The notes beneath the pieces were generated by a model that was given only the letters and a program-made list of their open reading frames with translations, did no database searches and was not told the origin of the DNA. From NCBI RefSeq assembly GCF_000820025.1, contig NZ_CDBI01000057.1, forward strand, positions 32,935 through 96,934: DNA of 64,000 nt. Reading direction: 5' to 3'. This stretch comes from Aeromonas popoffii. GTDB lineage: Bacteria > Pseudomonadota > Gammaproteobacteria > Enterobacterales > Aeromonadaceae. The position numbers and the translations under genes are program-made. Of this stretch, positions 21,661 through 27,177 are shown piece by piece (the stretch's first letter is position 1; every line of letters starts with the position of its first letter).

Positions 21661-23076
21661 TTAGCTGGTGCTGCTCACCAGTGCCGGTCTGAATTTCACC
21701 AGGAAGGCCACCGTCGTCACCAGGGTGCAGATGAGGCCTATGATGGTGGAGATGCCCATTTCCAACCCGAAACCTATGGGGGCGTTGGCCAGATAGGTAA
21801 ACACCACGGCGGTCATAAACATGGCAGGGATGGTGCAGACCCAGTGCAGCTTGCCTTCTTTGGCCAGATAGGCCGCCGCAGTCCACAGCATGATGACGGC
21901 CGTGGTCTGGTTGGCCCAGCCAAAGTAGCGCCAGATCACCCCGAACTCGGCCTTGGAGATGATGAAACCAAGGATGAACATGGGGATGGCGATCAGCAGA
22001 CGCTTGACCAGCGGCCTCTGGGTCATCTTGAGGAAGTCCGCCACGATCAGGCGAGCACTGCGAAACGCGGTATCGCCTGAGGTGATGGGCAGGATCACCA
22101 CGCCGAGGATGGCGAGGATGCCGCCCACGGTGCCGAGCAGGCTGGTGGAGACTTCATGTACCACAGCCGCCGGGCCGCCGTTGGCCATGGTGGCGTTGAG
22201 CGCTTCGGTGCTGTCGTAGAAGGAGAGACCCAGGGTACACCAGATGAGAGCGATGATCCCTTCACCGATCATTGCGCCGTAGAAGATGAAGCGACCGGAC
22301 TTTTCGTTCTGCATGCAGCGAGCCATCAGCGGTGACTGGGTGGCGTGAAAGCCCGATACCGCGCCACAGGCGATGGTGATGAACAGCAGCGGCCACAGCG
22401 GCAACTCGGTCGGGTGCAGGTTGGAGAAGTCCATCCCTGTGTTGTAGAAGCCTTTGCCGGAGACAATCAGACCAATGATAAGGCCGACTGACATGAACAC
22501 CAGCAGTGCGCCGAAGATGGGGTAGAAACGGCCGATGATCTTGTCGATGGGGACGATGGTCGCCAGGATGTAGTAGGCAAAAATCGCCACAATCCAGTAG
22601 ACCATATCGGTGGAGGTGAGGTTGGCGAGCAAGCCTGCCGGGCTCAGCACGAACACCACGCCAACCAGCATCAGCAGTACCACGGCAAACAGGTTCATGA
22701 AGTGCTTGGCGACGGTGCCCAGATGCTCGCCGACCACGGTCGGTACCGAAGCGCCCTTGGCGCGCACCGACAGCATGCCGGAGAAGTAGTCGTGTACTGC
22801 GCCGGCGAAGATGCAGCCAAACACGATCCACAGCATGGCGACCGGGCCGTAGAGGGCACCGAGGATGGGACCGAAGATGGGGCCGACGCCTGCGATGTTG
22901 AGCAGTTGTACCAGATAGACTTTTTTGTCCGACATGGGGACATAGTCCACCCCGTCAGCCATGGTGATGGCGGGGGTGGCGCGCTCGGGTTTCGGGCCGA
23001 ATATCCGCTCGATGAATTTGCCATATATGAAATAGCCGGCGACAAGTAGGCCGACACATAGGAAGAACCAGATCAT
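21661..23076 (-). CDS. CstA-family transporter (short form)
   Basis: A 471-residue membrane protein with about 13 helices, starting MIWFFLCVGLLVAGYFIYGK and carrying the CstA signature GVGPIFGPILGALYGPVAM plus HDYFSGMLSVRAKG. CstA and BtsT of E. coli are about 700 residues and import peptides or pyruvate; this belongs to the shorter branch of the family. It lies directly downstream of a BtsR/BtsS-like pair on the same strand, separated by 140 bases with a CRP-like site. By analogy with BtsSR-BtsT it may be their target and take up pyruvate, but that is inference. Confidence 0.87.
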   Translation of the reverse strand: MIWFFLCVGLLVAGYFIYGKFIERIFGPKPERATPAITMADGVDYVPMSDKKVYLVQLLNIAGVGPIFGPILGALYGPVAMLWIVFGCIFAGAVHDYFSGMLSVRAKGASVPTVVGEHLGTVAKHFMNLFAVVLLMLVGVVFVLSPAGLLANLTSTDMVYWIVAIFAYYILATIVPIDKIIGRFYPIFGALLVFMSVGLIIGLIVSGKGFYNTGMDFSNLHPTELPLWPLLFITIACGAVSGFHATQSPLMARCMQNEKSGRFIFYGAMIGEGIIALIWCTLGLSFYDSTEALNATMANGGPAAVVHEVSTSLLGTVGGILAILGVVILPITSGDTAFRSARLIVADFLKMTQRPLVKRLLIAIPMFILGFIISKAEFGVIWRYFGWANQTTAVIMLWTAAAYLAKEGKLHWVCTIPAMFMTAVVFTYLANAPIGFGLEMGISTIIGLICTLVTTVAFLVKFRPALVSSTS

Positions 23077-23191
23077 TACTACGCTCCTGCATTGTTATTT
23101 TTTAGTATGCGTCGCGAGTTTAAAACGCTTGCTTCTCTCTGGCAGGCGAAACCTCCCGAGTGGCGCTTTGGCGCGCCGAGTGGTCAGCGGC

Positions 23192-23207
23192 TGTGATCAG
23201 GCGCACA
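23192..23207. promoter_or_regulatory. Candidate CRP site upstream of the CstA-family gene
   Basis: TGTGATCAGGCGCACA (TGTGCGCCTGATCACA on the other strand) matches the CRP half-sites TGTGA and TCACA at 9 of 10 positions, 116 bases before the transporter start. Carbon-starvation transporters of this family are CRP-controlled in E. coli. Confidence 0.55.
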
Positions 23208-23216
23208 TTCCCTGGG

Positions 23217-23921
23217 TCAGTCCAGCCCCAGTTGATCTTTTAGCTCCTTGAGATAGCGACGGCTGACCGGCACCCGGGCGCCGCTCGGCGTGAGGATCTC
23301 TGCCAGCTGGTTATCCAGCAGCCGGATCTCGAAGATGGCCTTGGGGGAGACCAGGTACTGGCGGTGGCAACGCAACAGGAGGCTCTTCTCCTCCAGGGAT
23401 TTGAGGGTGAGCTGGGTGTGGAACAGCTCCCCCTGACAAGCCACGTGGACGCCGCCGAGATCGGAAAAGGCATACTCCACCTGAGCGATCGGCAGCAGCC
23501 GTACCCGATTGTGCAGATAGCCCGGAATGTGTTCGATGGTGGGGGCCAGCCGCTCGACCGGCTGCGGGGAGATATCCTGCTTGAGGCGAGCCAGCGTCTT
23601 GGCCAGCCGTGCCGGTTCCACCGGTTTGAGCAGGTAGTCGAAGGCGTTCTCCTCAAATGCCTGAATGGCATACTCGTCGAAGGCGGTGACAAACACGATG
23701 CGGGGCAGGGGATCGAGCATGGCTACCAGTTCCATGCCGCTCAGCTTGGGCATCTGGATGTCGAGAAACACCACATCCGGTTTGAGCTGCTGGATCAGTG
23801 GCAGCGCCTCGATGGCGTTGGCCGCTTCACCGACTATCTCGATGGCGGGATCGCTGGCAAGGTGCAGTTTCAGCTCCTCGCGGGCGTAATGTTCGTCATC
23901 AACAATCAGGGTGCGGATCAT
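23217..23921 (-). CDS. btsR: LytTR response regulator (BtsR/YehT-like)
   Basis: A 234-residue response regulator. The receiver domain has the acidic pair D8-D9 and phospho-acceptor D54 (VVFLDIQMPKLSG), followed by a C-terminal LytTR DNA-binding domain (about residues 130-234) with LLRCHRQYLVSPKAI. Its ATG overlaps the stop of the sensor kinase gene (ATGA), indicating coupling. In E. coli BtsR responds to pyruvate with BtsS and activates btsT. YpdB is the other close relative; the neighbouring CstA-family gene favours BtsR. Confidence 0.87.
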   Translation of the reverse strand: MIRTLIVDDEHYAREELKLHLASDPAIEIVGEAANAIEALPLIQQLKPDVVFLDIQMPKLSGMELVAMLDPLPRIVFVTAFDEYAIQAFEENAFDYLLKPVEPARLAKTLARLKQDISPQPVERLAPTIEHIPGYLHNRVRLLPIAQVEYAFSDLGGVHVACQGELFHTQLTLKSLEEKSLLLRCHRQYLVSPKAIFEIRLLDNQLAEILTPSGARVPVSRRYLKELKDQLGLD

Positions 23922-25588
23922 GGTTGCTCCTTGGGGATGGTGAACGAAACCCGGGTCCACTGCTCCGGCTCGCACGCAATGGTCACGCCGTAGCGCTCGC
24001 CAAAGGCGCTCTTGAGCCGTCGGTCGACGATGGTCATGCCAAGACCGTCACCGGCGGGCCTTTCTTGCCAGGCGCCGGCGTTGTCTTCCACATGGATGGT
24101 GACACTGGTGGTATGTTCCTCGGTATAGAGGCGAATGCGCCCCTGTTCCAGCAGCGTCGAGATGCCGTGCTTGATGGCATTTTCGATCAGCGGCTGCAGG
24201 GTGAAGCTTGGCAGGCGCAAGGTGGCCAGGTGGAGCGGGATCTCGTTGACCACCGTCAATCGGTCGCCAAAACGGGCTAGCTCGATCTCCAGATAAGACT
24301 GGCAGTGCTCCTGCTCCTCCTGCAGGGTGGCCAGCCCGCTCTGGCGCTTGAGGTTCTTGCGAAAGAACAGCGACAGGTGCAGCAGCAGATCCCGCGCCTT
24401 GTCGGGATCGCGCCGGGTGATGGCACTGATGGTATTGAGGGTGTTGAACAAAAAATGGGGGTTGATCTGGGCCTGGATAAGTTTCAACTCGGACTGCACC
24501 AGCAGCCGCTGATGCTGCTCCAGCCGACCGGCCAGCAGTTGCTGTGACAGCAGGTTGGCAATCCCTTCCCCCAGGGTGTGGTTGATCTTGAGAAACAGCC
24601 GCTTCTTCGGTTCATAGAGTTTGATGGTGCCGATCACCCCCTTGTCACCCTGCAGCGGGATCACGAGCACAGAGCCCAGCTGGCAAGCAGGCGAGAGGCT
24701 GCAGCGATAGGGCTGGCTGTTGCCATCGGCAAACAGCACCTTGTTGTGCGTGATGGCCTTCATGGTGGTGGCTGACGCGATGGGCGTACCTGGCAGATGG
24801 TGATCTTCTCCGATGCCGATAAAAGCGAGGATCTTGTCGGTATCCGTGATGGCGACAGCACCTACGCCGGTCTCCTCCTGAATGATGCGGGCAATCTTGC
24901 GGCTCGCCTCCGGGGTAAAGCCCTGGCTCATGATGCCGACCGTGCGATTGGCGATATTGAGCGCTTTGGCGGAGAAGACCCGGGAGAATTTTTCATACAT
25001 CCGCTGCTGGTCGCGGATCATGCTGATAAAGAGCGCGGCGCCGCAGGAGTTGGCCAGGATCATGGGGGTGGCGATGGTGCGCACCAGCAGCAGAGCCTGC
25101 TCGAACGGGGTGGCCACCAGCAGGATGATCAGCATCTGCATGATCTCGGCATAGAGGGTGGTAAAGAAGGCGATACGCGGTTCAAACAGGGCATCTGTCC
25201 GCCCGGAGCGCATCAGCCGCCAGTGCACCAGCCCCCCCAGCAAGCCCTCAAGGGTGGTGGAGATGGCGCAGGCGAGATCGGTAAATCCCCCTAGCGTGTA
25301 GCGGTGCAGGCCACCGGTCAGCCCTACCAGAAAGCCCACCAGCGGGCCTCCCAGCAGCCCCCCCAATACGGCGCCGACTGCCCGGGTGTTGGCGATGGCA
25401 TCATCGATATCGAGCCCGACATAGGTGCCGAGGATGCAAAAGCTGGAAAAAATAATGTATATCAGTATCTTGTGAGGAAGTCTGACGGAATAGTTGGCCA
25501 GGGGACGCAGCAGCGGACTCTTGGAGAAGAGATAGGCGATCACCAGACTGACGCTCATCTGTTGAAGCAGGGAGAGGACCAACTGCAT
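23918..25588 (-). CDS. btsS: Sensor histidine kinase, LytS/BtsS-like
   Basis: A 556-residue membrane kinase with about six N-terminal helices (5TM-LYT type, residues 1-210), a GAF-like domain, a His-kinase box INPHFLFNTLNTISAI carrying the phosphorylated histidine, and a C-terminal ATPase domain with N box LQPLIENAIKHGI and G box DGLGMTIVDRRL. Length matches E. coli BtsS (561), the pyruvate sensor. It is cotranscribed with the response regulator. Confidence 0.88.
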   Translation of the reverse strand: MQLVLSLLQQMSVSLVIAYLFSKSPLLRPLANYSVRLPHKILIYIIFSSFCILGTYVGLDIDDAIANTRAVGAVLGGLLGGPLVGFLVGLTGGLHRYTLGGFTDLACAISTTLEGLLGGLVHWRLMRSGRTDALFEPRIAFFTTLYAEIMQMLIILLVATPFEQALLLVRTIATPMILANSCGAALFISMIRDQQRMYEKFSRVFSAKALNIANRTVGIMSQGFTPEASRKIARIIQEETGVGAVAITDTDKILAFIGIGEDHHLPGTPIASATTMKAITHNKVLFADGNSQPYRCSLSPACQLGSVLVIPLQGDKGVIGTIKLYEPKKRLFLKINHTLGEGIANLLSQQLLAGRLEQHQRLLVQSELKLIQAQINPHFLFNTLNTISAITRRDPDKARDLLLHLSLFFRKNLKRQSGLATLQEEQEHCQSYLEIELARFGDRLTVVNEIPLHLATLRLPSFTLQPLIENAIKHGISTLLEQGRIRLYTEEHTTSVTIHVEDNAGAWQERPAGDGLGMTIVDRRLKSAFGERYGVTIACEPEQWTRVSFTIPKEQP

Positions 25589-25746
25589 AAAAAACGTTCC
25601 TCAGAGTCCGTGCCGAAAAAAGCGGCAGTCATGAATAAGTGTGATCAGGATCTTGTTCTGTGAGCAAGGTGCGTTCGATTGTGGGCGAAGTTTGCCAGAA
25701 ACGTGAAATAAAACCATATCAAATCAGCATGTTAAATTGATATTTG

Positions 25747-25752
25747 TATAAT
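25747..25752 (+). promoter_or_regulatory. Possible -10 element of a small RNA
   Basis: TATAAT, a perfect -10 hexamer, lies about 26 bases before a compact folded element and terminator. The -35 region at 16-18 bases is weak, so this needs an activator or is only a candidate. Confidence 0.45.
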
Positions 25753-25758
25753 CGCCCC

Positions 25759-25853
25759 AGGGTTGGTATTGCTGGATGGAGCATGAATGTATCCGCTGGA
25801 TACGCCACACGGAGGTGGCATGCTCCGCCCGGCCCCCTGGCTGGGCGTTTTTT
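25759..25853 (+). ncRNA. Candidate small RNA with three-way junction and terminator
   Basis: About 95 bases in the gap between btsS and the HD-GYP gene can fold without mismatches. P1 pairs GGAGCAT (25778-25784) with ATGCTCC (25820-25826). P2 is GTATCC/GGATAC (25789-25803). P3 is GCCAC/GTGGC (25804-25819). P2-P3 and P3-P1 abut with no unpaired base. A nine-bp terminator stem and six T's follow at 25826-25853. Both flanking genes read on the minus strand, so this is an independent plus-strand unit. The P3 loop contains ACGGA, similar to a CsrA target. No family is recognised. Confidence 0.55.
25826..25853 (+). terminator. Terminator of the candidate small RNA
   Basis: CGCCCGGCC / GGCTGGGCG stem (one G-U pair), four-base loop, then TTTTTT. 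The T run is only on the plus strand, where no protein gene ends. Confidence 0.85.
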
Positions 25854-25914
25854 ATCCAGGGTCGGCAGTGACCCCTTTTGAAGGTAATTGGGCAATTATT
25901 CAGGTTTGTCCAAT

Positions 25915-25943
25915 GAGTTATCCCCAGCTTCTGGGGATAACTC
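25915..25943. repeat. Perfect 13-bp hairpin at the end of the HD-GYP gene
   Basis: GAGTTATCCCCAG / CTGGGGATAACTC with loop CTT; it overlaps the stop codon of the HD-GYP gene. No clear T run follows, so it may be a weak terminator or a 3'-end stabiliser. Confidence 0.6.
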
Positions 25944-27177
25944 AGAAGGCAAAATAGTAACAGAAGCGCCGGGTAAGGTTAAAAAACAGCCTTTGTCCCT
26001 CATCCAGGTCTTCTTGCTTGATAAATGACTTGATGGTGCGCTCATCCTCCCGCAGATCCAGCATGGCCACCCCTTCCGGTCGCTGCGCTTTGAGGTAGGG
26101 CAGTACCTTGGGTTTGAGGGGCATGGTGGGCTCGGTTGAGAGCACCAGCGCCACAGAGTCGTCGGAGAGCTGCACCAGCGAACCGGGGGGATAGACTCCC
26201 AACACCTTGATCAGCAGCTTGACCAGGTCCTGATCGAACTTCTTCTGGGACAGCTTGTAGAGCTGGCTGATGGCCTGGCTCGGGGCGGCCGGGGTCGCAC
26301 TGCTGCGCGGGTGCAGCAGCTCGTCATAGTAGTCCACCAGTCCGATTATCCGTGCCAGTGGCGGGATCTCGCCGCCCTTGATGCCCAGAGGAAAGCCGCT
26401 GCCATCGAGCCGCTCGTGGTGCAGATGGGCCACCTGGCGGATCTTGAACTCAAATGCCTGCAACTGGGTCAGCATCTCCAGCCCGTACTGGGGATGCATG
26501 TTGAGAAAGTTTTGCTCTGACTTGTTGAGATCCCCTCGTTTCTGGGTGATCTGGCTCGGGATTCTCAGCTCTCCGATATCGTGTACAAGGCCTGCCAGTC
26601 CAGTCTCCTCGATCTCGATGGGGTTCATGCCGAGTTCCCGGGCCATCAGCATGGCGATGAAAGCCACGTTCAGGCTGTGCTGCAGCAATATGTCGGTGTG
26701 CGGGCTGCGAATGAGATGCAGGCCGAGTGGCCCCTCGTGTTCACTGATACGGGCGGCGGCATTGCGCACTATTTGCGCCGTATTAGCCAGCCCTTCGTCA
26801 GGCTTGAGGTTGAGGGCCCCCAGTGCATCGCGCAGCTCGGACATGGATTGGCCAAAGGCTTTGTCGGCGGCGCGCAGGGAGCGGCGGAAAGCTTTCTCGT
26901 CGAAGGGAGTGAGGCCCGTGTCTATGACCTCATCGATGATCGACAGATCGGGGCCGGCGGCGGGAATATCGCCGCGCAAGATGGGCTCTATGGGCAGGTC
27001 GCTTTTGTCCGGATCCACCATCAACAGATTGAGGTCGAGATGGCGAATGATGTCGAGTTGTTGCTGATCCTTGATCTTGAAGGCATTGAACATAAAAGGG
27101 TGACTGGTCCATCCCGTGGGGAGATGGATGTAGTGGCCGATCCGTAACTGCTCTATCGAGGCTTGTATCAGCGACAT
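25942..27177 (-). CDS. HD-GYP domain protein, probable cyclic-di-GMP phosphodiesterase
   Basis: A 411-residue cytoplasmic protein. An N-terminal DUF3391-like region (IEQLRIGHYIHLPTGW, about residues 1-120) is followed by an HD-GYP domain (about residues 150-340) with HSLNVAFIAML, GLVHDIGELRIP and HHERLDGSGFPLG. HD-GYP enzymes hydrolyse cyclic di-GMP at a two- or three-metal site. Two signature positions are changed: the canonical HDIGK has Glu in place of Lys and the GYP triad reads GFP. The metal-binding His/Asp residues appear intact, so activity is plausible but not certain. Confidence 0.87.
   Translation of the reverse strand: MSLIQASIEQLRIGHYIHLPTGWTSHPFMFNAFKIKDQQQLDIIRHLDLNLLMVDPDKSDLPIEPILRGDIPAAGPDLSIIDEVIDTGLTPFDEKAFRRSLRAADKAFGQSMSELRDALGALNLKPDEGLANTAQIVRNAAARISEHEGPLGLHLIRSPHTDILLQHSLNVAFIAMLMARELGMNPIEIEETGLAGLVHDIGELRIPSQITQKRGDLNKSEQNFLNMHPQYGLEMLTQLQAFEFKIRQVAHLHHERLDGSGFPLGIKGGEIPPLARIIGLVDYYDELLHPRSSATPAAPSQAISQLYKLSQKKFDQDLVKLLIKVLGVYPPGSLVQLSDDSVALVLSTEPTMPLKPKVLPYLKAQRPEGVAMLDLREDERTIKSFIKQEDLDEGQRLFFNLTRRFCYYFAF

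Follow-up and report, generated by a model that had tools for sequence, protein, structure and literature searches.

A plus-strand small RNA gene, conserved in Aeromonas, very likely exists at positions 25779-25853 of the 64,000-nucleotide stretch of DNA analysed here (the window). Its layout is that of a three-way junction (25779-25825), supported by pairing, RNAalifold and tree-mapped events, followed by an intrinsic terminator (25826-25853), and our covariance model, R1, scores at least 82.9 bits on each of 32 copies. On balance, our best reading is that this is a genus-specific, independently transcribed RNA of about 75 nt that offers a single site to CsrA beside a btsSR-cstA-type locus. 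Whatever its partner may be, it constitutes a conserved RNA family, defined by the alignment of its homologues, that escapes every Rfam threshold here. We place the putative 5' end at 25779, the first conserved base of the RNA, because conservation picks up again there, and the 3' end would lie at the T run.

The junction consists of P1 (25779-25784/25820-25825, 6 bp), P2 (25789-25794/25798-25803) and P3 (25804-25808/25815-25819), and the terminator of a 9-bp stem (25826-25834/25839-25847) followed by six T. P2, P3 and the terminator with its T run are present in the MFE fold just as an earlier, sequence-only reading of this DNA had drawn them; P1 comes out one pair shorter. That reading had given it seven pairs (25778-25784/25820-25826), of which six are conserved, whilst the seventh falls away because base 25778 varies (18 of 32 homologues have G) and its partner, C25826, belongs to the terminator, where it had been counted as well. 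For 25778-25826 the MFE structure, at -23.0 kcal/mol, is a three-way junction whose linkers measure 4, 0 and 0 bases; 6 of 3000 dinucleotide shuffles fold at least as stably, and 25747-25860 folds with z = -2.59. The two junction strands without unpaired bases, which had been thought improbable by chance, are indeed there but only mildly unusual: three-way junctions with two or more zero linkers arise in 34 of 3000 dinucleotide shuffles and in 15 of 2132 49-mers sampled from the window. A scan also located the terminator, one of 2 such sites in the 2.5-kb region, where shuffles lead one to expect 1.4. It is covariation in homologues, and not the zero linkers, that lifts the structure above chance.

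Applied to the homologues, RNAalifold returned the identical structure unprompted. Pairing is kept in 99.6% of 801 cells (31 distinct alignment rows), whilst slid versions of the alignment structure pair in only 31.4-41.6%, and two-sided, compensatory changes occur at 8 of the 26 pairs, a number matched by none of 500 shuffles. As shuffles keep the relatedness of the rows, we also mapped the changes onto a 30-tip tree, which yields 11 two-sided events (5 in P2, 2 in P3 and 4 in the terminator, where 3 of 9 pairs are affected) and 17 one-sided events; just 2 of all mapped events end in a non-pair. P2 and P3 covary; P1 does not, five of its six pairs being constant and the sixth departing by mismatches alone, in 2 rows. 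On the plus-strand reading, 33 cells are G-U and none A-C, which places the RNA on that strand. Compensatory change was the test by which the sequence-only reading had proposed to stand or fall, and its central claim, a structured plus-strand RNA with its own terminator and no assigned family, comes through on these changes and on the failure of any Rfam family to reach threshold. The predicted ensemble leaves unpaired the GAAU linker, the P2, P3 and terminator loops and the U tail; the P2 and terminator loops drift among homologues, though unpaired, and the GAA of the linker is nearly invariant. The 3' half is largely invariant too, including the strand CATGCTCCGCCC (25819-25830), which runs through the end of P3, the 3' side of P1 and the start of the terminator and is the same in all 32 homologues. 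In one natural variant (L014, genome G025), a 9-nt deletion takes out P2; P1, P3, its loop and the terminator remain.

How widely is this RNA distributed? We searched the intergenic region in 37 Aeromonas genomes, the source genome counted, and found the RNA together with its upstream block between the btsS-type and HD-GYP-type genes in 32. Among the other five, G009 keeps both neighbours (btsS 70% identical) around a 228-base gap; G027 has the HD-GYP gene and lacks a btsS match; in G029 the HD-GYP gene is present and btsS has a 58% match on a different contig; and G006 lacks a btsS match, its HD-GYP match reaching 36% at best. In G020, where the RNA was not found, the btsS match runs into the end of a contig and HD-GYP matches reach 37% at most, so a copy may have gone unseen. 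In a midpoint-rooted tree of the HD-GYP gene (33 rows, a single gene), G009, G027 and G029 group apart from the 30 carriers, and this tree, along with the locus survey, ties the RNA to the btsS/HD-GYP locus. Among 75 genomes of the family, 63 hold some R1 match at E up to 1, the extra matches being nearly all weak; the best outside the 32 copies scores 34.7 bits, and we do not accept these as homologues, the seven that were aligned resting mainly on GC-rich terminators. An even draw of 394 genomes of the order gave matches at E up to 1e-5 in 20 genomes, all Aeromonas, both of these searches being run with Infernal's stricter filters. Exact patterns scanned against one genome each of 84,980 species returned 24 loci, all titled Aeromonas, in a scan that misses diverged copies and outside which near records may fall. 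In the searches made, at family, order and 84,980-species scale, the RNA is restricted to Aeromonas. Neither is it a dispersed repeat, the source genome holding one full copy and other matches having E values of 0.18 or worse. A phage collection gave no match, and a plasmid collection gave two records. NZ_AP026896.1 (A. caviae, 4.94 Mb), titled plasmid pKAM479_3, is probably a mislabelled chromosome; the second, linear and 85.7 kb long, also carries cstA, HD and alcohol dehydrogenase genes nearby and is probably chromosomal DNA.

The candidate CsrA site is the P3 hexaloop, ACGGAG in the window (25809-25814, plus strand). In 32 of 32 homologues it reads ANGGAX directly on the stem, and only N (C in 26, T in 6) and X (G in 29, A in 3) vary; ACANGGANGT is likewise found in all 32, and in the 24 named-species loci, where the search pattern demanded it. 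The loop stays open in the predicted ensemble, and in L016 and L027, where a C-G pair of the P3 stem has become U-A by compensated change, the loop core is unaltered. A hexaloop ANGGAX set directly on a stem, with N and X variable, is the high-affinity Csr/Rsm site, as described, with the hairpins of RsmZ as the model, in the consulted part of PMC4005645; by this rule for CsrA-binding RNAs every homologue carries the predicted site. We consider it reasonably probable that CsrA binds here. With this constancy the P3 loop moves from the speculation of the sequence-only reading to the leading hypothesis, whilst the two further GGA triplets that it had noted in the 5' part do not hold up as sites: at 25763-25781 homologues have 0, 1 or 2 such triplets in 9, 8 and 15 cases, respectively. 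Several observations temper the assignment. ANGGA hexaloops are not rare in themselves, as ANGGAN loops on at least 5 stem pairs number 7 in the window (both strands), against a mean per triplet of 3.6, and the constancy of the loop is not independent evidence, since the 3' half as a whole is largely invariant. Against a CsrA ligand, moreover, stands its single conserved site, compared with 22 and 17 GGA in the CsrB copies of the source genome, and G009, which retains both neighbours without the RNA, speaks against a reading built on CsrA and this locus. A conserved ANGGA was not found in the cstA-type leaders, 4 of 17 having one, in differing places.

If CsrA does bind, P1 and P2 would form a scaffold on which P3 displays one hexaloop of the high-affinity type, making the RNA a small CsrA ligand: perhaps a decoy with one site, or else a molecule occupying one face of the CsrA dimer. 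It would act beside the CsrB-type sponges of the same genomes; indeed, CsrB-family RNAs lie above cut-off in all 37 Aeromonas genomes (at least two such matches in 35), and CsrA was found in 36, the exception being 80% complete. This would add a further, differently wired input to the Csr network of Aeromonas, and a 75-nt RNA with one such loop offers a natural test of a single site versus many-site sponges.

The neighbourhood raises the question of what such an input might report. The RNA is divergent from a minus-strand set made up of a btsS-type (LytS) sensor kinase gene (23918-25588; Pfam 5TM-5TMR_LYT and His_kinase, without an NCBIfam match, and named from its position beside btsR), a btsR-type response regulator gene (23217-23975 as the ORF is listed; NCBIfam PRK11697 BtsR, above cut-off) and a cstA-type transporter gene (21661-23076; Pfam CstA). 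It faces an HD-GYP-type gene (25942-27177, minus strand; Pfam HD_5 and DUF3391), with adhE beyond. BtsS/BtsR-type systems respond to pyruvate in the genera tested, Aeromonas among them, according to the excerpt of PMC5552118, and in E. coli CsrA inhibits synthesis of CstA as well as BtsT, both of them transporters (PMC7730263, in the part consulted). The position of the RNA may accordingly couple CsrA activity with carbon or pyruvate state, a link drawn from the neighbourhood.

Among known RNA families none fits, as had been claimed: cmscan of the whole window against Rfam gave tRNA only, with no family over threshold at the RNA. CsrB/CsrC (RF00018) does not appear for 25590-25945 even among matches with E values up to 5. 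The likeness to CsrB/CsrC lies in the proposed working part, a GGA motif offered to CsrA in a hairpin loop, and the stem core CCAC/GTGG of P3 recurs in one hairpin of the second CsrB copy of the source genome; the difference is one of scale, about 290-315 nt with 22 or 17 GGA in the source genome against about 75 nt with one conserved site; the RNA neither scores above the gathering cut-off of RF00018 nor has the many GGA hairpins of that family. The best sub-threshold families, at 20.5 bits each, are RF02278 (Betaproteobacteria toxic small RNA) and RF02837 (anti-hemB), whose gathering scores are 50 and 49.5, the terminator making up much of the aligned part; a 'betaproteobacteria toxic small RNA' is predicted in A. 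salmonicida J223 (PMC8780938, consulted in part). Of RsmX, RsmY and RsmZ, the last supplies the model hairpins for the ANGGAX rule, whereas our RNA has a single conserved site, and the only Rsm-type match is RsmV, a 26-base piece of which scores 10.9 bits where the gathering score is 100. McaS and GadY are likewise short sRNAs, proposed to antagonise CsrA (PMC7652899, from the portion seen); at our RNA no Rfam threshold is reached. With conserved structure on the strand predicted to be transcribed and an intrinsic terminator, the RNA resembles a trans-acting sRNA in these two respects. It is not named among the titles and abstract openings listed by searches of the Aeromonas literature, a body from which subscription journals are mostly missing, so the RNA may already be in print.

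The predicted promoter of the RNA would lie in the conserved sequence upstream, and yet not be the element first proposed. The perfect TATAAT at 25747-25752 exists in the window, and there alone: its second base is G in 29 and A in 3 of 32 homologues, and the hexamer is kept in 1 of 32, for which reason we reject it as the promoter of the RNA. Conserved instead is a block of 20 bp, TTAAATTGATATTTGTRTAA (25732-25751, plus strand; 32/32), a candidate promoter or activator region that contains the TATAAT bar its last base, just outside; elsewhere in the source genome it has one match within 3 mismatches, at 3 mismatches. Eleven bases past the block in all 32 rows sits TTGnTATT(G), a candidate -10-like element (25763-25771, plus strand; TTGNTATT in 32/32). 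This is a poor sigma-70 match, and a promoter scan of the region found none, so what is conserved looks like a promoter region without clear sigma-70 hexamers. At 25722-25734, AATCAGCATGTTA, a candidate regulatory site also written AATCAGNNNGTTA, fits WATCARNNNNTTR, which we take to be the IHF consensus, in all 32 homologues, the differences falling on N positions; exact WATCARNNNNTTR matches number 7 in the window, both strands taken together. Apart from this IHF-like site, we know of no factor that fits the conserved upstream blocks, and the GacA/UvrY box, TGTAAGN6CTTACA, is absent from them on inspection of the conservation table by eye. In most rows TTGATATT occurs twice upstream of the RNA (25737-25744 and 25763-25770, 26 bases apart), the fourth base of the second copy varying. 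On the btsS side, TGTGATC at 25640-25657, in the btsS upstream region, resembles a CRP half site, and TGTGA within it is nearly invariant in 32 rows.

Could the RNA work by base pairing? To this we would give a minority chance: P1 would open, perhaps with Hfq, and CATGCTCCGCCC would pair with the Shine-Dalgarno regions of mRNAs, the P3 loop then being a stability or CsrA element. CUCC is the core of an anti-Shine-Dalgarno sequence; the invariance of CATGCTCCGCCC (32/32) exceeds what pairing alone requires, P1 shows no covariation, and GGAGCGU, which occurs in the Shine-Dalgarno region of all 17 cstA-type leaders examined, is a possible pairing partner of AUGCUCC. Such an RNA need not shun CsrA, as the base-pairing sRNAs McaS and GadY are reported as CsrA binders in the excerpt of PMC7652899. 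On the other hand, the predicted fold ties up the CATGCTCCGCCC strand in helices, and the leader match is generic, being one of 74 instances of GGAGCRT close before an ATG in the source genome (22 in a reversed-pattern control); a 14-base complement matches exactly only the RNA itself, with 65 matches at up to 2 mismatches against 35 in the control. The main work of the RNA may be as a decoy or in base pairing. As an observation on the leaders themselves (23077-23226, minus strand, and 16 further loci), GGAGCGT lies just before the start codon in all 17.

We regard it as unlikely that a different protein partner, or the shape of the RNA, accounts for its action and that ANGGA stands in the loop fortuitously. 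The whole fold is conserved, the GAA linker is nearly invariant as well, and the 20-bp upstream block has no assigned explanation; variation in the loop, however, is confined to the two positions at which Csr/Rsm proteins accept change (PMC4005645, in the part available). Slightly less likely still is a minimal dual RNA, in which the rigid junction presents one CsrA hairpin while the invariant P1 strand becomes free, upon binding or refolding, to pair with ribosome-binding sites; were this true, a single 75-nt Aeromonas RNA would connect CsrA with pyruvate sensing in two ways. That the region is a minus-strand btsS leader, or that the fold arose by chance, is very improbable: the region does lie upstream of btsS, and two zero linkers do turn up in shuffles (34/3000), but the T run is on the plus strand, the pairs covary, and the count of G-U over A-C cells (33 versus 0) disposes of the leader. 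Least credible is a short protein gene from the ATG at 25783, which is present in 31 of 32 homologues with first codons alike in many rows, and which we reject on in-frame stops in L016 and L027, the loss of the start in L027, differences at first and second codon positions that track the stems, and a reading that diverges past the terminator loop.

In the surroundings of the RNA, a second near-invariant stretch lies at 25894-25945, past the HD-GYP gene (L118, L119, L120), and includes a perfect 13-bp palindrome (arms 25915-25927/25931-25943) without a T run. A match over this stretch occurs in 36 of 37 Aeromonas genomes, RNA-less ones included. The palindrome looks like an integration site: in G018 it holds a tyrosine-integrase island of about 7.2 kb, flanked by two copies of CCAGCTTCTGGGGATAA and carrying a Phage_integrase-family gene and a Resolvase-family gene, and in G002 it is split likewise, over two contigs.
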